From contig JAJXYI010000626.1 of assembly GCA_021780625.1 (NCBI GenBank), positions 1 through 8,876 of the forward strand: a stretch of 8,876 nt of DNA, in the 5' to 3' direction. Source of the stretch: a bacterium (GTDB taxonomy: Bacteria > Verrucomicrobiota > Verrucomicrobiae > Opitutales > Opitutaceae). Below, piece after piece: positions 1,351 through 8,876 of the stretch. How positions within the stretch are numbered: position 1 is the stretch's first letter; each line of letters starts with the position of its first letter. The notes below the pieces were generated by a model. That model made no database searches and was not told where the DNA came from. It saw only the letters and a program-made list of their open reading frames with translations. A program made the position numbers and the translations under genes.

Positions 1351-1389
1351 AAAACTCAAAGCCCCGGAGTCAGTCGGGCCCCGGGGCTT
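1351..1389 (-). terminator. rho-independent terminator of the respiratory operon
   Basis: On the minus strand a perfect 9-bp stem AAGCCCCGG/CCGGGGCTT (plus-strand arms 1359-1367 and 1381-1389, 13-nt loop) is followed by a T-rich tail, TGAGTTTT. It begins 18 bp after the stop codon of the CydA-like/cytochrome c gene. On the plus strand no T run follows, so it acts for minus-strand transcription. It separates the operon from the thioredoxin gene. Confidence 0.85.
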
Positions 1390-1407
1390 CAGTGCCAGAC
1401 GGCAAAC

Positions 1408-2751
1408 TTAACGCTTCGAGAGCGTCGCGAGGTAATCGCCGAGGTCGCTGACCTCCTGCGGCGTGCCGGCGAGGGGCGGCATGAACGCGTGGTAGGGCGA
1501 ATCGGGCTTCGCCTCATGAAGGATCCGCAGCAGGCTTCCGATCGCCTCGCGGTCGCGGCCGGCCAGCAGACGGGTCATGGACCGATAGCCGTCGACGGTG
1601 TGACAGGCCATGCATTCGCCCCGGAAGATGGCCTGCCCTCGCGCGAGGTTCTCCGGTCCCTTGTCCGAGGTCCACATCGAGTGGGTCAGGTATCCGTCCT
1701 TGTTGAACCGGGCCACGTCGTAGTTGCGCACGCCGTTTGAATACATGTGCTCCCCGATCACATACGGTTTGCGCAGCATTTCGCGGGCGTATTCGGCCGC
1801 GGCGGTCGTCACCAGCGCCAAAACAAGGATCGACAGCGCATGGCCGAAGCCGAAATCCCGGGCCGAGCGCCAGGCGAAGAAATAGACCACACCAGCGATC
1901 GTCGCGGAGGTCATCACGATCACGAGCACGGTCCGGGTGACCTGGGTGAACATGCCCGTGCCGATCGTGGACATGCCAAACGAGAGCAGTTCGCGCTGGG
2001 CCGCCGGGACGCGATAGAGGTACCACGCGAGGAGGAAGGGCAGAGCGATGAACGAGGGGACCAGCCACTTCGCGCTCCAGCGAACGAGCTGGGCCTTCAG
2101 TTCGGCGCGGTCCTCCTCCATGCGGCTCGAGGTCACCAGGGCCCACACACCCGCAAGGGAGAAGCAGACCACCGTCCGCAGGAACAGGCTTGGCCAGTAG
2201 GTCGGATTGAAGAAGGCCTCCCAGAACCGGCCGGCCTCCTGGCCTGTGCCCGCGACCGCCAGCCATGCGGCGCCCGGGGTCAGCATGAAGGTCAGGATGC
2301 CGTTGATGATCACGAGCGTGAACAGGGAGGCGACGGCATAGACCCAACCCACCGCGAGGTGCAGTTCGTCGGACACGCGGCCCCACGTGTAGTAGTACAC
2401 CGCGGCGGCCGAGAGCTCGACGAGGAAGAACACCCACTCGATCGCCCAGCCGAAGACGAAGTTGTGGATCAGCGTGCTCGTGGCCTCGGGGTTTGCGAGT
2501 CCGATGGCAAACCAGATACCGACGCCCGACACGGCGCCGAAGACGCCCGTGAGGATCAGGAAGAACCTCGAGTGTGCGCGCAGCGGCTCCAGCCACTCGC
2601 GCCGCCCCTGCTTCAGCGCCTTGCGTTCGGTGAGCGGGAGATAAAGCCCTCCGCCGACGGCGAAGTGCGAGATCATGATGTGGAAGATGGCGATCAGACC
2701 GATGACCCAGCCCGAGCCCAGATACGGCACATTCCAGAAAGGATAGTTCAT
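1408..2751 (-). CDS. CydA-like (cytochrome bd subunit I-like) protein with C-terminal cytochrome c domain
   Basis: 447 residues. About eight membrane helices (roughly 12-36, 62-84, 96-121, 132-157, 187-208, 228-246, 270-293, 303-321) match E. coli CydA helices 1-8. H24 in helix 1 (IFHIMISHF) fits the H19 position of the high-spin heme. WAIEW-VE (E105, E112) fits the E99/E107 region, although with one residue less between them. EYAREMLRKPYVIGE (320-334) fits the segment around GRQPW. R192 occupies the place of b558 ligand H186, and V275 appears to replace M393. The Q-loop between helices 6 and 7 is only about 20 residues. Instead of helix 9 there is a class I cytochrome c domain: C380-M-A-C383-H384 with likely distal Met424 (AFMPPLAG). 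Eight helices with N-out topology would place the heme c in the periplasm. Likely role: terminal reductase subunit fed by cytochrome c. It starts 18 bp after cytochrome b, without a clear Shine-Dalgarno. The family call is firm; the electron acceptor is inferred. Confidence 0.88.
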   Translation of the reverse strand: MNYPFWNVPYLGSGWVIGLIAIFHIMISHFAVGGGLYLPLTERKALKQGRREWLEPLRAHSRFFLILTGVFGAVSGVGIWFAIGLANPEATSTLIHNFVFGWAIEWVFFLVELSAAAVYYYTWGRVSDELHLAVGWVYAVASLFTLVIINGILTFMLTPGAAWLAVAGTGQEAGRFWEAFFNPTYWPSLFLRTVVCFSLAGVWALVTSSRMEEDRAELKAQLVRWSAKWLVPSFIALPFLLAWYLYRVPAAQRELLSFGMSTIGTGMFTQVTRTVLVIVMTSATIAGVVYFFAWRSARDFGFGHALSILVLALVTTAAAEYAREMLRKPYVIGEHMYSNGVRNYDVARFNKDGYLTHSMWTSDKGPENLARGQAIFRGECMACHTVDGYRSMTRLLAGRDREAIGSLLRILHEAKPDSPYHAFMPPLAGTPQEVSDLGDYLATLSKR

Positions 2752-2769
2752 GACAGCAGTGGTTGGGGG

Positions 2770-3849
2770 TTAGAGGACGGCGTAGCCCCAGATGGTCGTC
2801 ACCAGGAGGATGCCAAGCACCACGAAGCCAAACCACGTGGCCTGGCGCCCGCGCCTGCCGGGGCGGGTGTCGGGATCGAACAGCGGTATCAGGAACCAAA
2901 GCACAAGGCCCAGGGTGAAGAGCACCATGCCCGCCCCCTCGCCCGCAGATCCGGGGAACCAGCGTCCGAAGAGCTTCAGGACCTGGAAGGAGCTCATGAA
3001 ATACCACTCCGGATGGATACCCGCGGGCGCTGGCTTGAGCGCGTCGGCGGCGCTGCCGAGGTCCCAGGGGAAGATCGCGGCCATGACCGCGAGCGCATTC
3101 AGCGCGATCAGCCACATCGCGAGATCCTTCATCAGGAAGTTCGGGAAGAACGGCACCGTCTTGCGCTGCGCCACGGGCTTATTCTGCTCCGAGGGCGGGA
3201 GCGCATTGCCGTGCCTCTGGACCAGCCACAGGTGGAAACCAAGGAGCGGCACGAAAAGCGCCGGAAGGATCACCACATGCAGCGCGAAGAACCGCTGCAC
3301 CGTGAAGGCGGTCACGTCCGGTCCGCCCCGAACGATGTCGCCGATCTTCGAGCCGATGAGCGGCAGCGAGGTGGGAATCTCGAGGCCGACCTTCGTCGCG
3401 AAGTACGCGAGCGTGTTCATCGGGAGCAGGTATCCGCTGAAGCCGAACACGAGCGTGAGCAGGAGCAGGATCATCCCCGACCACCAGCCGAACTCCCTCG
3501 GATTCCGATAGGCCTTCATGAAGAACACCGAGAACATGTGCACGAAGATGGCGGCGATCATGAGGTTCGCCGACCACGAGTGCGCCGAGCGGATGAGCCA
3601 TCCGAAATGGATCTCATAGGTGATCTGCCGCACCGACTCGAAGGCGTCGGGGCCGGGCCGATAGTACACGAGCAGGAGCACGCCGGTCACCGCCTGCACG
3701 AGGAACAGGAACAGCGAGATGCCTCCCCAGTAATACCAGAACGACTGACGGTGCTGGGGCACGGTCTTGTGCTTGGCGAAGGCCATGAGCTCCGAAAGCC
3801 CGAGCCGCTCGTCGATCCAGGAAAAAGCCGAATTGGATTTTTGGTTCAT
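2770..3849 (-). CDS. cytochrome b of a bc/b6f-type menaquinol-oxidising complex
   Basis: 359 residues, seven membrane helices: a four-helix cytochrome b6-like half and a three-helix subunit-IV-like half in one chain. Heme ligands are H90 and H104 (x13 spacing) in helix B, and H191 and H206 (x14 spacing) in helix D; the x14 spacing is typical of b6f and Firmicute-type cytochromes. The Qo-site motif P280-E-W-Y283 is intact. IHFGWLIRSAHSWSAN is strikingly close to chloroplast b6. The b6 cysteine that holds heme ci (FYCLGG) is Tyr40 here (WYYWGG), so a covalent heme ci is not expected. The ATG at 3849 was chosen because AAAGGAG lies 6 nt upstream and the start falls 14 bp after the Rieske stop; a longer open frame upstream overlaps the Rieske gene and is not coding. 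It works with the Rieske protein to oxidise quinol, probably menaquinol, at the membrane. Confidence 0.95.
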   Translation of the reverse strand: MNQKSNSAFSWIDERLGLSELMAFAKHKTVPQHRQSFWYYWGGISLFLFLVQAVTGVLLLVYYRPGPDAFESVRQITYEIHFGWLIRSAHSWSANLMIAAIFVHMFSVFFMKAYRNPREFGWWSGMILLLLTLVFGFSGYLLPMNTLAYFATKVGLEIPTSLPLIGSKIGDIVRGGPDVTAFTVQRFFALHVVILPALFVPLLGFHLWLVQRHGNALPPSEQNKPVAQRKTVPFFPNFLMKDLAMWLIALNALAVMAAIFPWDLGSAADALKPAPAGIHPEWYFMSSFQVLKLFGRWFPGSAGEGAGMVLFTLGLVLWFLIPLFDPDTRPGRRGRQATWFGFVVLGILLVTTIWGYAVL

Positions 3850-3863
3850 GTGGGGCTCCTTTC

Positions 3864-4349
3864 TCAGACGCGCGACACCTTCACGTCGCCCTTGTCGACC
3901 GTCACCTTGTACGCCGTGAGCGGGCGCGGGGGCGGTCCGTCGATGTTTTTGCCGGTGTAGGCGTTGTATACGCCGCCGTGGCAGGCGCACTTGATGAGGT
4001 CCGCCTCGGGATGGTACTGGACGGTGCAGCCCAGGTGGGTGCAGACCGCGGTGAGCGCGACCCACTTGCCGTCCTTGTGGTGGATCAGCACCGCGGGATG
4101 GGCGCCGAACTTGAACATCAGCGCCGTGCCCGCGGGAAGGTGCTCGGCGTCCTTGAGCGTGACCTCCGACACGGCGGCCTCGGCGGCCTCCATCTCGGCG
4201 GGCGACGTCAGGTAGCGGTAGACCGGATAGCCTATCGCCGCCGCATAACAGGCGCCGACGGCACCCACGGCCAGCTTCACGAATCCGCGCCGGGAAAGCG
4301 CCTCGTCGGAGGATTCCATTGTGTTTGAATTTCCGGATACGTCGTTCAT
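3864..4349 (-). CDS. Rieske [2Fe-2S] protein of the quinol-oxidising complex
   Basis: 161 residues. A Tat signal, S19-R-R-G-F-V-K25, precedes a hydrophobic helix (about 26-47) that anchors the protein, so the cluster domain is folded in the cytoplasm and exported. Box 1 is C103-T-H105-L-G-C108 and box 2 is C121-A-C123-H124-G-G. Cluster ligands are C103, H105, C123 and H124; C108-C121 is the expected disulfide. The Ser that follows CHG in high-potential Rieske proteins is Gly126, while the Tyr two residues later (Y128) is kept, which predicts a lowered potential suited to menaquinol. The ATG at 4349 overlaps the stop of the upstream membrane gene (ATGA) and has GGGAG 6 nt before it, so translation is probably coupled. 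Electrons from quinol pass through this cluster, probably to the fused cytochrome c at the end of the operon, since no cytochrome c1 is encoded here. Confidence 0.95.
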   Translation of the reverse strand: MNDVSGNSNTMESSDEALSRRGFVKLAVGAVGACYAAAIGYPVYRYLTSPAEMEAAEAAVSEVTLKDAEHLPAGTALMFKFGAHPAVLIHHKDGKWVALTAVCTHLGCTVQYHPEADLIKCACHGGVYNAYTGKNIDGPPPRPLTAYKVTVDKGDVKVSRV

Positions 4350-5473
4350 GGGAGGCTCCCTTCCGACTGCGTCTTTGCACGCGCCATCACCGAGACCAGC
4401 CAGGCCAGCGCGCCGAGGCCTGCGACGAAGACCACGAAGAACACCGCGACCACGGACCAGTTGGTCACCACGACGCGGTCCCAGACATTGAATCCCTTCG
4501 CAGCGAGCGTGAGATCGCGGAGGCCATCGCGGAACAGCGTCCAGGCGGCGATCGTAAGCACCACCAGCAGCGCACTGCCGTAGGCCGCGACCGAGGACCT
4601 GGGACGGGCGACTGCAGCCCAGGCTCCGAAGAGCAGCACCCCGGCGGCCAACACGGTCCAGGCCAGCCGGCAGTCCGCATAGACCGCGTTCGAGCCAAGC
4701 GCCTCGCGCAGCGATGGGGCGAGCGAACCGAGCAACATGACGCCGACCGCGCCCTGGGCCACGATTCCGATCACGGCCAGGCGGCCGCCAAGCCCCGACA
4801 GATGCCGAGCGAGGGCGGCCTCGATGGATTTCCTCGAGGAGATCCACACCATCCACAGGCCCGCGACCCACACGCCGCCCGCCATCATGAAAAGCCAGCG
4901 CGGCAACTCCGTGGGGTCATGGGGCGGCAGGTGAAGCCCGACGGACGACGCCTCGTACATCGACCGCCAGACCTCGGGTCGAAGCATGAGGGTCATGTTC
5001 ATCGTGTAGATCCGCGCGATGCCCCCCGCCAGCAACCAGGCGAGCCCGCCGATCCACCACACCGCCCTCCCCTGCTCCGTCCCCTTGGCGAAGCGGTACA
5101 GCAGCCAGTAGCAGGCCATCAGCAGGAAGATCACCGAGATCCAGTACACGCCGATCAGCACGCTGCTCGTGTACAGGGCGCGGCCGTAGAGCACCTGGGA
5201 GAACAGCAGAGGCGGCACACCCAGGTTGATCACATAGGTCATCACGATCGGCATGCGCCTCGCGAGCGCCGCCGACGCGCCCAACTGGAGTTCGGAGCCC
5301 GGCGTCCCGCGTCGGAGCACTCCGGCGAGGTTCAGGAAGATCGCGGCGAGGAGCCCTCCGATGAGGACCTCCACGGCCACGAAGTGAAGCGACAGCGTCA
5401 GCACGTGCAGGCCCTTGAAGAGCCACACCGGTGCCGGCAGCGGGATCGGATCGACAGCTGGAAACGTAGTCAT
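4346..5473 (-). CDS. polytopic membrane protein, possible second subunit of the bd-like complex
   Basis: 375 residues, about nine hydrophobic helices (roughly 17-50, 77-96, 103-127, 136-157, 191-212, 229-252, 268-288, 296-314, 335-362). I do not recognise a named family. The first helix (LSLHFVAVEVLIGG, H30) resembles CydA helix 1 around the H19 heme ligand, and ARRMPIVMTYVINLGVPP (71-88) recalls the start of CydA helix 2, so it may be a divergent bd-superfamily subunit filling the place of CydB. Other notable residues are H23, E35, H181 and H185, the last two in a Pro-rich loop. There is no CxxCH motif. It overlaps the Rieske gene by 4 bp, which argues for a shared complex. The ATG at 5473 was preferred over a GTG at 5524, which would overlap the Rrf2 gene and add a 17-residue tail; neither has a clear Shine-Dalgarno. 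The gene is certain, the function is inferred. Confidence 0.85.
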   Translation of the reverse strand: MTTFPAVDPIPLPAPVWLFKGLHVLTLSLHFVAVEVLIGGLLAAIFLNLAGVLRRGTPGSELQLGASAALARRMPIVMTYVINLGVPPLLFSQVLYGRALYTSSVLIGVYWISVIFLLMACYWLLYRFAKGTEQGRAVWWIGGLAWLLAGGIARIYTMNMTLMLRPEVWRSMYEASSVGLHLPPHDPTELPRWLFMMAGGVWVAGLWMVWISSRKSIEAALARHLSGLGGRLAVIGIVAQGAVGVMLLGSLAPSLREALGSNAVYADCRLAWTVLAAGVLLFGAWAAVARPRSSVAAYGSALLVVLTIAAWTLFRDGLRDLTLAAKGFNVWDRVVVTNWSVVAVFFVVFVAGLGALAWLVSVMARAKTQSEGSLP

Positions 5474-5514
5474 GGCGATGATGGGGTATGGAACAAAGTC
5501 GAAGAGGCTGGCGC

Positions 5515-5988
5515 TCAGGCGCACGCGACGCGGCGTCTGGCGGGGGCCGGGTGAAGGGCGCGGTGGGCGAGCGCGTGGCCAGGGGTGTTTCGGGCGAGCA
5601 GGTCGAACCGGGACGCGGCGAGACTCTCGCGAAGCGCGCGGTCGGCCTCACACCACACACCCTGGATCGGACACCGGGACGCGAGCGGGCAGCCCTTGCC
5701 GCCATGAGTGCAGCGGTTGAGCGCGATGCGTCCCTCCATCGCCTCCACGATGTCGAGCAGCGAGATCTCGTTCGCGGGCCGGGCGAGTCGCAGCCCTCCG
5801 GAGGCACCCCGGACCGTCTTGAGGATCCCCGCCTTCACGAGACTCCCGACCAGCCGGCGCACGAAGGGCAGCGGCATTGCGCGGGCCTCCGCGACCTCGC
5901 GGATCGAAACCTGCGCGTCGCCGTCGACGGCCGCCAGGTGGAGCACCAGCCTCGCTGCGTAATCGGTATGTCGTGCGATCGAGAGCAT
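5515..5988 (-). CDS. Rrf2-family transcriptional regulator with a four-cysteine Fe-S motif
   Basis: 157 residues. The N-terminal winged helix-turn-helix of Rrf2 proteins is clear (TDYAARLVLHLA, then IREVAEARAMPLPFVRRLV at 29-47, then VRGASGGLRLAR). SLLDIVEAMEG precedes the sensor loop. Cysteines are at C93, C100, C106 and C113; IscR/NsrR proteins use three Cys about 5-7 apart for a [2Fe-2S] or [4Fe-4S] cluster, so the first three fit and C113 is extra. Members of this family sense Fe-S status, NO or redox state. About 30 C-terminal residues rich in Arg, Ala and His look non-conserved. It is the first gene of the respiratory operon, 41 bp before the membrane-subunit gene, and probably controls that operon and itself. 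A perfect palindrome lies 24 bp before its start codon. The signal it senses cannot be told from the sequence. Confidence 0.92.
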   Translation of the reverse strand: MLSIARHTDYAARLVLHLAAVDGDAQVSIREVAEARAMPLPFVRRLVGSLVKAGILKTVRGASGGLRLARPANEISLLDIVEAMEGRIALNRCTHGGKGCPLASRCPIQGVWCEADRALRESLAASRFDLLARNTPGHALAHRALHPAPARRRVACA

Positions 5989-6011
5989 TGACGGGCATAG
6001 GTGACAACCCC

Positions 6012-6251: not shown

Positions 6252-6923
6252 TCAGCCCGCGTCGGGCCGCTTCGGGATACCGGGCTCCGAAGGGAAAGGG
6301 GCGAACAGCGACACGGCCTCGCCGCGCGAGCTCACATGCAGCTTGTGGTAGATCCGCCGAACATGGGTATTGATCGTTCCAATACTGAGTCCCAGCAGGT
6401 CCGCCATCTCCTTGTAGGCGAGTCCACGGGCCAGGAGCCTGAGGATCTCCAGTTCGCGCGCCGACAGGTCCTCCACCCGTCCGTGGTTCGGCTCCTGGGG
6501 CTTCTTCTGGAACCACTGGACGACCTTGCGCGCGATGTAGCTGTTCATCGGCGAGCCGCCGGCGTGTACCTGGCGAATCGACGCGAGCAGCTCCTCGCGG
6601 GGCGTCTGCTTCATAAGATAACCGGAGGCTCCGGCGGTGAGCGCGTCAAAGATGTGGTCGCTGTCCTCAAAGACGGTGAACACCACGAACTGGGTCTCGG
6701 GCATCGCGGCCTTGAGCTGGCGCACGCAGGTGATTCCGCTCTGTCCGGACAGATTGATGTCGACGAGCACGACGTCCGGCCTGTGGGCCGGCAGCAGGGC
6801 GATCGCGCCCTCCACGCTCTCGTGCTCGCTCACGAACTTGAGCCCATGGTCGTGCGCGATCCAGTCGGCAACCAGGGAACGGACGCCTGCGTCGTCCTCG
6901 ATGATGGAAACGGAGATGCTCAC
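6252..6923 (-). CDS. NarL/FixJ-family response regulator
   Basis: 223 residues. The receiver domain (about 3-120) has the acidic pair D10/D11, the phosphorylation site D55 (VLVDINL), T83 and K105 (YLMK). After a linker, the LuxR-type DNA-binding domain (about 152-205) shows LSARELEILRLLARGLAYKEMA and a recognition helix in IGTINTHVRRIYHKL. The start is a GTG at 6923; no ATG lies nearby, and this start gives the expected strand-1 sequence. No clear Shine-Dalgarno is visible. The gene follows the sensor kinase stop by 27 bp, so the two are almost certainly cotranscribed and form a two-component pair. Targets are unknown. The respiratory operon begins 263 bp downstream on the same strand and is one candidate, by proximity only. 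Confidence 0.95.
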   Translation of the reverse strand: MSISVSIIEDDAGVRSLVADWIAHDHGLKFVSEHESVEGAIALLPAHRPDVVLVDINLSGQSGITCVRQLKAAMPETQFVVFTVFEDSDHIFDALTAGASGYLMKQTPREELLASIRQVHAGGSPMNSYIARKVVQWFQKKPQEPNHGRVEDLSARELEILRLLARGLAYKEMADLLGLSIGTINTHVRRIYHKLHVSSRGEAVSLFAPFPSEPGIPKRPDAG

Positions 6924-6950
6924 GGTAGTAGGGGGGAAAGACGCGGGGTT

Positions 6951-8876
6951 CTAGCGGTTCACGGACTTCCAGGGGAATGAAAAGACGACCGTGAAACCGG
7001 GGTCCTGCGATTGGCGCAGTTCCACCGAGCCGCCAAGTTGCGCGAGCCGGCGTCGCATGCTGGCCAGGCCATTTCCAGACGCGATCCGGCCCTCCTGCGC
7101 CACGGGTGCCGCCCCCAGGCCCGAGCCGTTGTCCGCGACAACAAGCCGCCCGCCCTCCGGTCCAGCCTCCAGCGAGATCGTCACCTCGGTGGCCCCCGAG
7201 TGTTTAACCACGTTGTTGAGCGCTTCCTTGTACGCCAGAAACAGGTTGTGTCGGGCATCCGAGTGAGGTCGCCAGGGCGGGATCTCGAGGGGGAAATCGA
7301 ACCGGCACCGGATGCCGGCCGTCCTCAGGAAATCCTGCGCGTACTTCTCGAAGTAATTCACGAGCGACTCGAGCGTGTCGTGCTTGGGATTCACCGCCCA
7401 GACGATCTCGTCCATCGCCTTCGTCACACCGCGTGCCGTCTCGTAAATCCGCCCGAGGCCATCCTGGGTCTTGGCGGGGTCCCCGAGGTCCCGGCGCACC
7501 GTCTCGCACAGCATCGTGATCCGGGTCAGATGCGCGCCGAACTCGTCATGCATGTCGTTGGCGATGCGAGCGCGCTCGGAATCGATCGACCGCTCGAGCT
7601 CCAATCGCTCCAGGCTTCGCAGCAGCTTCACCCGGGCGCGGTTCCAGACCAGGGCCACCGTGGCCAGGACGAAGAGCCCGGCGAGCGTGAGCCTGAACCA
7701 CAGGGTCTGCCAGACAAACGGCCGGACCGTCAGCGCAACCTCCGCACCGCCGAGGTTCCAGACGTTGTCGTTGTTTGCCGCAAGGACCCGGAACGTGTAG
7801 CGCCCGGGAGGCACGTAACTGTAGATTGCATACCGCTCCGCCCTGGCCTGCTGCCAGTCGGAGTCGAGGCCAGCGAGCCGGTACTTGAATCGGACAAGAC
7901 TGGGATCCGCAAAGCTCAGTCCGGTAAACTTGAATTCGATCCGATGGCGTCCCGGAGGCACGACCACCGGACGGCGAACGGCGCCGTTGGGGGTCACCAC
8001 CCGACCGTCGATCCGCACCGACTCGATCACGACCGGGGGGACCTGCGTGTTCAACGCGACATCGGACGGGTCGATGATGGCGAGGCTCTGGTCCATCGAG
8101 AAGACGAGGCGGTCGTCGGCGGTGCGGCAATTGCCGCCCTGCTGGGAGGGCGAGCAGATGAGGCTGCCGAGACCGTCATTGCGGCCATAGCTGAGGCAGT
8201 CGACCTGCCCCAATTGTCCGTCCGCACATGCGTTCAGCTGGCGTTTGCTCACCCGGATGATTCCGGCGCCCGTGCTCATCCAGAGATAACCGCGTCCATC
8301 ATCCTCGATCTGCGATACCGTCGCGTCGGCCAGGCCGTTGGCCGGCAGGATGGCGGAGAAACGCCCGTCCTTGAGCCGGTCGAGTCCGCCGCCTTTCGTC
8401 CCGATCCAGAGCGCGCCATCTTTATCGCGATAGAGTCCCTTGATGTAGTCGCTGGAGAGTCCGTTGCGCGTCGTGTAGCGCACGACCTTGCCCGATCGGA
8501 TGCAGCCGAGTCCCTCGCCGTCGCAGCCAACCCAAAGCGTCCCATCGGGATCCTCGAGCACGGACTTCACGTGAAGCAGGGTCGGTGCGGTCCTGGACTC
8601 CATCCAACGGATCCTGCCGTTGTCGTAATGCACCAATCCGCGGACGCCCCCGATCCAGAGTCCTCCGTCGCGTGCGGGAACGATCGTATTGATGGGTGCG
8701 GGCAGTTGGTCGGACCCTGGCGCCGCGTGGATTCTCCCGTCGCTAAGGATATCCATGCCCAGCCAGTTTCCGATCCACACGGTGCCCTTGGGATCCTCGT
8801 AGACGGTCCAGACGTAGGCGTTCTGCATGCCGTCCTCCAGGCTGTAATTGCTCCAGCGCCCGTCTTTGTCCAAATG
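6951..8876 (-). CDS. sensor histidine kinase with Reg_prop beta-propeller sensor (5' partial)
   Basis: At least 642 residues are visible; the gene runs past the window edge, and the TTG at 8873 is most likely internal rather than a start. Numbering here begins at that codon. At least five Reg_prop repeats of the D-G-x-L-W-x-G type occur (near residues 30, 70, 111, 153, 195), so this is the end of a periplasmic propeller. A Y_Y_Y domain (about 315-385, ending in YTFRVLAANNDN) leads to one membrane helix (about 391-410). The cytoplasmic part has a HisKA_3 dimerisation domain with phospho-acceptor H442 (ANDMHDEFGAHL) and a HATPase_c domain with N box (ALNNVVKHS), D581-N-G-S-G and N601-G-L-x-S-M. 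Such kinases phosphorylate NarL-type regulators, and the partner gene lies 27 bp downstream. The signal is unknown; in Bacteroidetes related hybrid sensors read polysaccharide fragments. The sensor region contains six cysteines. Confidence 0.93.
   Translation of the reverse strand, partial: HLDKDGRWSNYSLEDGMQNAYVWTVYEDPKGTVWIGNWLGMDILSDGRIHAAPGSDQLPAPINTIVPARDGGLWIGGVRGLVHYDNGRIRWMESRTAPTLLHVKSVLEDPDGTLWVGCDGEGLGCIRSGKVVRYTTRNGLSSDYIKGLYRDKDGALWIGTKGGGLDRLKDGRFSAILPANGLADATVSQIEDDGRGYLWMSTGAGIIRVSKRQLNACADGQLGQVDCLSYGRNDGLGSLICSPSQQGGNCRTADDRLVFSMDQSLAIIDPSDVALNTQVPPVVIESVRIDGRVVTPNGAVRRPVVVPPGRHRIEFKFTGLSFADPSLVRFKYRLAGLDSDWQQARAERYAIYSYVPPGRYTFRVLAANNDNVWNLGGAEVALTVRPFVWQTLWFRLTLAGLFVLATVALVWNRARVKLLRSLERLELERSIDSERARIANDMHDEFGAHLTRITMLCETVRRDLGDPAKTQDGLGRIYETARGVTKAMDEIVWAVNPKHDTLESLVNYFEKYAQDFLRTAGIRCRFDFPLEIPPWRPHSDARHNLFLAYKEALNNVVKHSGATEVTISLEAGPEGGRLVVADNGSGLGAAPVAQEGRIASGNGLASMRRRLAQLGGSVELRQSQDPGFTVVFSFPWKSVNR

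Follow-up and report, generated by a model that had tools for sequence, protein, structure and literature searches.

The window analysed here, an 8,876-nucleotide stretch from an Opitutaceae bacterium (Verrucomicrobiota; GenBank assembly GCA_021780625.1, contig JAJXYI010000626.1), contains five consecutive genes on its reverse strand. These encode an Rrf2-family regulator, a membrane protein that we call memA, a Rieske protein, a cytochrome b, and CydA-c, a protein with a core like that of cytochrome bd oxidases and a fused cytochrome c domain (Table 1). The last four genes recur together in several phyla, and their products have features suggestive of a respiratory unit in which a Rieske/cytochrome b complex would feed a bd-like terminal oxidase.

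An initial annotation of this DNA had described five same-strand genes with gaps of at most 41 bp and an ATGA overlap, which is borne out by the coordinates and by Pfam matches. The intergenic distances from the Rrf2 gene to the CydA-c gene, as calculated from the coordinates, are 41, -4, 14, and 18 bp, and memA and the Rieske gene overlap in an ATGA at 4346-4349. A chance arrangement is excluded because the gene order recurs in other genomes. A terminator had also been placed after the last gene. A GC-rich hairpin with a partly U-rich tail does lie behind the CydA-c gene, and its folding energy is consistent with this function, but it is not among the calls of a strict terminator scan.

Table 1. 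Features of the operon, with positions in the window.
Feature	Position	Strand	Remarks
Rrf2-family regulator	5988-5515	-	First gene of the run; PF02082, E 5e-32
memA (CydA-type paralogue)	5473-4346	-	375 amino acids, 9 helices; proposed CydA' subunit
Rieske [2Fe-2S] protein	4349-3864	-	PF00355, E 1.2e-13; TAT-like N-terminus
Cytochrome b, fused b6/subunit-IV type	3849-2770	-	PF13631/PF00033/PF00032
CydA-c	2751-1408	-	Pfam: Cyt_bd_oxida_I, residues 15-205; Cytochrom_C, residues 370-445
Hairpin, likely transcription terminator	~1359-1389	-	Fold of 1335-1410: -32.6 kcal/mol, z -2.97

Conservation of the gene order

A scan of genome contigs for CydA-c confirmed 301 relatives, of which the best 80 loci were analysed. 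A gene-neighbourhood search had been suggested in the initial annotation, and it does recover the predicted association: cytochrome b and Rieske genes lie beside CydA-c in 54 of the 80 loci, and in 51 of these 54, memA, Rieske, cytochrome b, and CydA-c genes follow each other in this order on one strand. In the other three (L004, L005, L032), the contig starts inside or just before the Rieske gene. Median gaps at the memA/Rieske, Rieske/cytochrome b, and cytochrome b/CydA-c junctions are -4, 7, and 21 bp, and gaps of at most 50 bp are found in 48/51, 47/54, and 45/54 loci, respectively. The operon of L057 is split into several frames, and L002, L022, L025, and L031 have an extra gene or gap. 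In L025, a short-chain dehydrogenase gene separates Rieske from cytochrome b, and in L002, a gene for a 23S rRNA intervening-sequence protein precedes CydA-c.

The 54 operon loci belong to Verrucomicrobiota, Acidobacteriota, Armatimonadota, Planctomycetota, Omnitrophota, Sumerlaeota, and Hydrogenedentota, and also include a Thermochlorobacteriaceae bacterium and a Melainabacterium. The CydA-c of the window groups with Verrucomicrobiota in a tree, and among the matches listed, an Opitutaceae bacterium supplies the closest memA relative that bears an organism name (P0005). Across 51 operons, that of the window among them, pairwise distances are correlated among the four proteins (r 0.77-0.89, compared with a highest permuted value of 0.38), and the four genes were therefore inherited together. 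Rough clustering of open reading frames (ORFs) in the 80 loci yielded no further gene family in more than 8 loci, except for one that appears to be antisense to the operon.

In 24 of the 80 loci, memA follows CydA-c, and a sequence search of the available locus DNA detected neither a Rieske nor a cytochrome b gene, although this search covered less than 500 bp of upstream DNA in L070 and L076. The remaining two of the 26 non-operon loci are L051, which is cut, and L053, in which a 569-amino acid memA-Rieske fusion (4282-5991) directly precedes CydA-c. memA accompanies CydA-c in both groups, and Rieske and cytochrome b do so in only one. L062 (1-8419) contains two tandem CydA-c genes and memA behind genes judged by eye to be cbb3-type-like, Mrp/ApbC-like, and NifU-like, and L058 and L073 share its neighbouring gene clusters. 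A single origin of the association with Rieske and cytochrome b was considered and rejected: three changes are required on the tree. Given the weak support of its deep branch (89/25), these genes may have been either gained or lost.

Genome samples from three phyla were also searched, comprising 288 genomes from the phylum of G001 (taken as Verrucomicrobiota), 297 from Acidobacteriota (the phylum of G008), and 291 from Armatimonadota (that of G014); several of them had already been found by the first CydA-c scan. At most five candidates per genome were scored, and misses are possible. CydA-c matches at 1e-40 or better are present in 9, 66, and 55 genomes, respectively, with 136 matches in total. 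A cytochrome b gene adjoins CydA-c in 45 of the 136, and in 40 of 40 matches that score at least 670 bits, a cut chosen after the scores were known. Below it, five adjacent matches (240-640 bits, one of them partial) overlap the range of non-adjacent ones, which reach 627 bits. The adjacency count was entered for 83 matches, and the other 53, all from Acidobacteriota and scoring under 492 bits, were checked by eye; none of these has a cytochrome b match on its own contig. The proposed association with Rieske and cytochrome b thus holds in the clade of the window and fails in the wider family, whose members are routinely found apart from these genes.

Conservation of the operon does not extend to the Rrf2 gene. 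Relatives detected by phmmer lie directly upstream, on the opposite strand, in 4 of the 54 loci (L012, L016, L022, L025), and ~2.6 kb downstream in L041. The Rrf2 protein of the window has three cysteines in NRCTHGGKGCPLASRC and is probably an iron-sulfur or redox-responsive repressor; its scores against IscR, RirA, and NsrR models are all under the cut-offs. Downstream of the operon and on its strand is a gene for a TlpA/ResA-like thiol-disulphide oxidoreductase (591-1142). Such proteins can serve c-type cytochrome maturation. We rejected this gene as an operon member, as tlpA matches occur in only 2 of the 80 loci, both without Rieske and cytochrome b. On the other side of the operon, positions 6252-8873 hold a two-component pair, consisting of a LuxR-type response regulator and a propeller/Y_Y_Y/HisKA_3 sensor kinase that extends as far as the end of the window.

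Conserved residues and missing cytochrome c genes

The cytochrome b, whose best solved match is cytochrome b6 (6rqf_I), has haem ligand pairs H90/H104 (13 residues between them) and H191/H206 (14 between them) and the Qo motif PEWY at 280-283, all invariant in 54 aligned rows. Its position 40 corresponds to Cys35 of cytochrome b6, the residue for haem ci, and is tyrosine in 50 of 54 rows, including that of the window (Y40), and phenylalanine in the other four. In the Rieske protein, C103, H105, C121, and H124 as well as C108 and C123 are invariant in 53/53 rows, with a CACHGG motif, and the N-terminus matches the twin-arginine translocation (TAT) signal model TIGR01409 over its cut-off. Rieske proteins of bc1 complexes have a serine at a position that is glycine in all 53 rows, which, in the light of earlier work, suggests a low-potential cluster of the menaquinol type. 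The four haem b histidines, the PEWY motif, and the Rieske ligands of bc1 and b6f complexes are all present, but the complex has no gene for its own cytochrome c1/f or another c-type subunit.

This absence was assessed by counting same-strand ORFs of at least 60 amino acids with a CxxCH motif, outside the four genes, using equal windows for operon and control loci. None was found within 2 kb of the Rieske and cytochrome b genes in the 54 operon loci (46 with full flanks), and within 4 kb there is one, in L031 (185 amino acids; 35 loci with full flanks). The control consisted of 19 of 20 other cytochrome b matches, the weakest (G014:C11) being omitted; 18 of the 19 loci come from operon-bearing genomes, and G082 is not operon-bearing. 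A same-strand CxxCH motif is present in 18 of these 19 control loci, within the cytochrome b frame or nearby. The sole exception (L110, 3962-5724) is the second Rieske/cytochrome b pair of the Thermochlorobacteriaceae genome that carries L024, and has no same-strand CxxCH ORF in the flanks covered. The initial annotation had proposed haem c on the CydA-like protein as the route of the operon, and the counts agree with it: the fused domain is the operon's only c-type cytochrome and the sole candidate for the role of cytochrome c1/f.

A structural model of CydA-c has an eight-helix CydA core and a C-terminal cytochrome c domain. With eight transmembrane helices, this domain would be outside if the N-terminus is outside, as it presumably is in CydA and, by extension, in CydA-c. 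Comparison with Escherichia coli CydA equates H24 with H19, E105 with E99, E112 with E107, E324 with E445, and R327 with R448. H24, E105, E112, and E324 are invariant in 82/82 CydA-c rows, and their E. coli counterparts are active-site residues. C380-x2-C383-H384 and M424 of the cytochrome c domain are equally invariant. The CydA fold and the counterparts of H19, E99, E107, and E445 place CydA-c in the cytochrome bd superfamily.

The features of a quinol-oxidising (qOR) enzyme, namely the quinol site of the Q-loop, the H186/M393 ligands, and an accompanying CydB, are all missing. Only 22 residues join helices 6 and 7, the Q-loop is gone, and the stretch of K252 and E257 is unaligned. R192 stands at the place of the haem b558 ligand H186 in 82/82 rows, and position 275, the counterpart of M393, is methionine in one row and another residue in 81; judging from this alignment, in which both mappings sit in a low-confidence stretch of the profile, both b558 ligands are lost. 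The loss of the bd quinol site supports the initial annotation, which had pointed to bd-superfamily branches that lack quinol-binding features. In the cytochrome c domain, all 54 operon rows have R390 and R399, and 53 of them have Y420. Among the 28 non-operon rows, position 390 is arginine in 6, position 399 is tryptophan in 22, and position 420 is mostly a gap. These three residues are a candidate Rieske-docking face.

memA has no Pfam or NCBIfam match, and among 120 of its 2148 scored relatives, those listed, Pfam domains are likewise absent and the only name given is "hypothetical protein". It is matched by the CydA-c profile, and its best fold matches are CydA chains. We rejected its identification as CydB, since it has no sequence match to E. 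coli CydB and its fold matches lie elsewhere. Direct comparison with E. coli CydA gave no match either, and the memA profile matches Geobacillus CydA weakly (E 0.36). The link to CydA rests on the CydA-c profile, the fold, and this weak profile match. memA is a second, diverged CydA-type subunit, and the oxidase module resembles a CydAA' pair. The initial annotation was right to report a membrane protein in the operon but missed this identity.

The sole active-site residue certain in memA is H30, the counterpart of H19; in the alignment there is no conserved glutamate at the places of E99 and E107. Position 195, which is F195 in the window, probably corresponds to the site of the b558-ligating histidine. 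It is histidine in 22/22 rows from loci without Rieske and cytochrome b, and H195 has the same spacing from an NP/DP motif as H186 in E. coli CydA. By contrast, 50 of 51 rows from loci with Rieske and cytochrome b have F, L, Y, or M, which points to a possible loss of a low-spin haem ligand. The remaining row (L056) has histidine, so the position is not a perfect marker. Perhaps a low-spin haem in memA of the non-operon group does the job that Rieske and cytochrome b do in the operon group.

Proposed electron route and alternatives

We consider it reasonably likely that the four proteins make up a dedicated unit of complex III and terminal oxidase, in which electrons would flow from quinol through Rieske and the fused haem c to a bd-like site, with a Q-cycle. 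Cytochrome b would oxidise quinol, probably menaquinol, at the Qo site. One electron would go back to the quinone pool by way of both b haems, and the other would pass from the Rieske cluster directly to haem c of the periplasmic CydA-c domain, which would stand in for cytochrome c1/f. Haem c would then reduce a di-haem (b595/d-like) site within the core of CydA-c, the most likely place of O2 reduction, and memA would be the second bd-superfamily subunit, in place of CydB or CydA'. From the sequences, we infer menaquinol as the donor, this electron route, a stable supercomplex, O2 as the acceptor, and the gain of a Q-cycle. More tentatively, and with chances that we put slightly short of even, the proteins form an obligate III-IV supercomplex with a CydAA'-type terminal module, in which the Rieske head docks on the cytochrome c domain, haem c replaces b558 as the entry point, and bd respiration gains Q-cycle proton translocation. 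The initial annotation had proposed a single complex or supercomplex, and this idea gains from the conservation of Rieske, cytochrome b, and CydA-c as a unit with an intact Qo motif and loses from the frequent separation of these genes in the wider family.

Several observations weigh against a dedicated unit. An adjoining cytochrome b is lacking in 91 of the 136 matches to the CydA-c family, and therefore CydA-c and memA can work without it. L053 belongs to the operon clade, on a long branch, and has no cytochrome b in its 13.3-kb locus. L056 has all four genes yet groups with the other clade, and has histidine at memA position 195. The uncertain mapping of H186 and M393 belongs here too. Finally, PF00115 proteins, which are haem-copper oxidases in a family that includes nitric oxide (NO) reductases, are present in 16/16 operon-bearing genomes, and 14/16 have another cytochrome b match. 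The operon is therefore an extra branch, perhaps for low O2. Canonical CydA is present in 6/16 of these genomes.

Some of these facts would also fit two ordinary, co-regulated modules, in which Rieske/cytochrome b reduces a soluble cytochrome c pool that in turn supplies CydA-c/memA, a simple cytochrome c oxidase. The 24 loci with only CydA-c and memA, the cbb3-like neighbours of L062 with the clusters shared by L058 and L073, and the PF00115 proteins all favour such an arrangement. We regard it as unlikely given the strict coupling inside the window's clade, the lack of an own c-type cytochrome gene, unlike in 18/19 control loci, and the residues of the cytochrome c domain that are conserved specifically in the operon group.

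The substrate might be NO or peroxide instead of O2, making the operon a detoxification branch under an NsrR-like Rrf2 sensor. The position of the Rrf2 gene at the head of the run in the window, with its sub-threshold scores to the IscR, RirA, and NsrR models, is suggestive of this, and the PF00115 protein in every tested genome is compatible with it. However, an Rrf2 gene is directly upstream in only 4 of the 54 loci, the residues kept in CydA-c are those of the bd oxidase O2 site, and detoxification would presumably need no Q-cycle complex; we think this quite improbable. We give still less credence to the idea that CydA-c/memA no longer reduces a gas and serves as a haem-bearing conduit or anchor in the membrane, handing Rieske electrons to another acceptor. 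The loss of both b558 ligands in CydA-c and the absence of conserved glutamates at the E99 and E107 positions of memA could be read in this way, but H24, E105, E112, and E324 never vary, and the gene clustering revealed no frequent further family, other than the antisense one, among the loci.

Relation to known enzymes and significance

The usual picture of a bd oxidase is that of a quinol oxidase operating independently of complex III. The OR-C family of the superfamily was reportedly defined by Murali, Gennis and Hemp in 2021, and its enzymes presumably carry a c-type haem, with which the CydA-c motif (C380, C383, H384, M424) fits. The following comparisons draw on excerpts of the cited papers. 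These divide the bd superfamily into qOR, OR-C, and OR-N, with the quinol site as the mark of qOR (PMC13189123, PMC10839748). Bd enzyme families without a quinol site are already published, so the operon adds a variant and not a new kind. As a CydA homologue without a quinol site, CydA-c resembles OR-C in that classification (PMC13189123, PMC10839748). It also resembles the OR-N/CydAA' enzymes of Nitrospinota and Nitrospirales, which have two CydA-type subunits and a proposed cytochrome c donor (PMC10839748, PMC12342949), and whose OR-N5 type is encoded directly downstream of alternative complex III (ACIII) (PMC12342949). Here, however, Rieske/cytochrome b takes the place of ACIII, and the CydA core carries the cytochrome c as a fused domain.

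In Nitrospira moscoviensis, a region encodes complex III and a bd-like oxidase, for which its authors proposed a III-IV supercomplex (PMC6606698). That region has several c-type cytochrome genes (PMC6606698), whereas here there is no separate one. Melainabacteria have petB and petC, genes for cytochrome b6 and Rieske, near an O2 reductase, which has been read as a III/IV combination (PMC6349859), but that oxidase is a type C haem-copper enzyme (PMC6349859) and here it is of the bd type. Also unlike the Nitrospira moscoviensis region, the operon keeps four genes in a fixed order across phyla. The actinobacterial bcc-aa3 supercomplex likewise transfers electrons from Rieske through a bound cytochrome c to an oxidase without a soluble carrier; here, the terminal module is of the bd type, and the cytochrome c is part of it. 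The excerpts of PMC8951039, PMC11707229, PMC12569097, and PMC7618691 do not treat the operon, and in a literature search by titles and the beginnings of abstracts we recognised no account of it, which is weak evidence; the 2021 classification by Murali and colleagues may already include this clade.

If the dedicated unit is real, a Q-cycle complex would drive a bd-type oxygen site in Verrucomicrobiota, Acidobacteriota, Armatimonadota, Planctomycetota, and others, and the bd-like enzyme would gain energy in a way that is closed to ordinary bd oxidases. The relatives of memA, a large family so far unnamed, would acquire a role, and one defined operon would make it possible to test which donor supplies electrons to bd enzymes lacking a quinol site.

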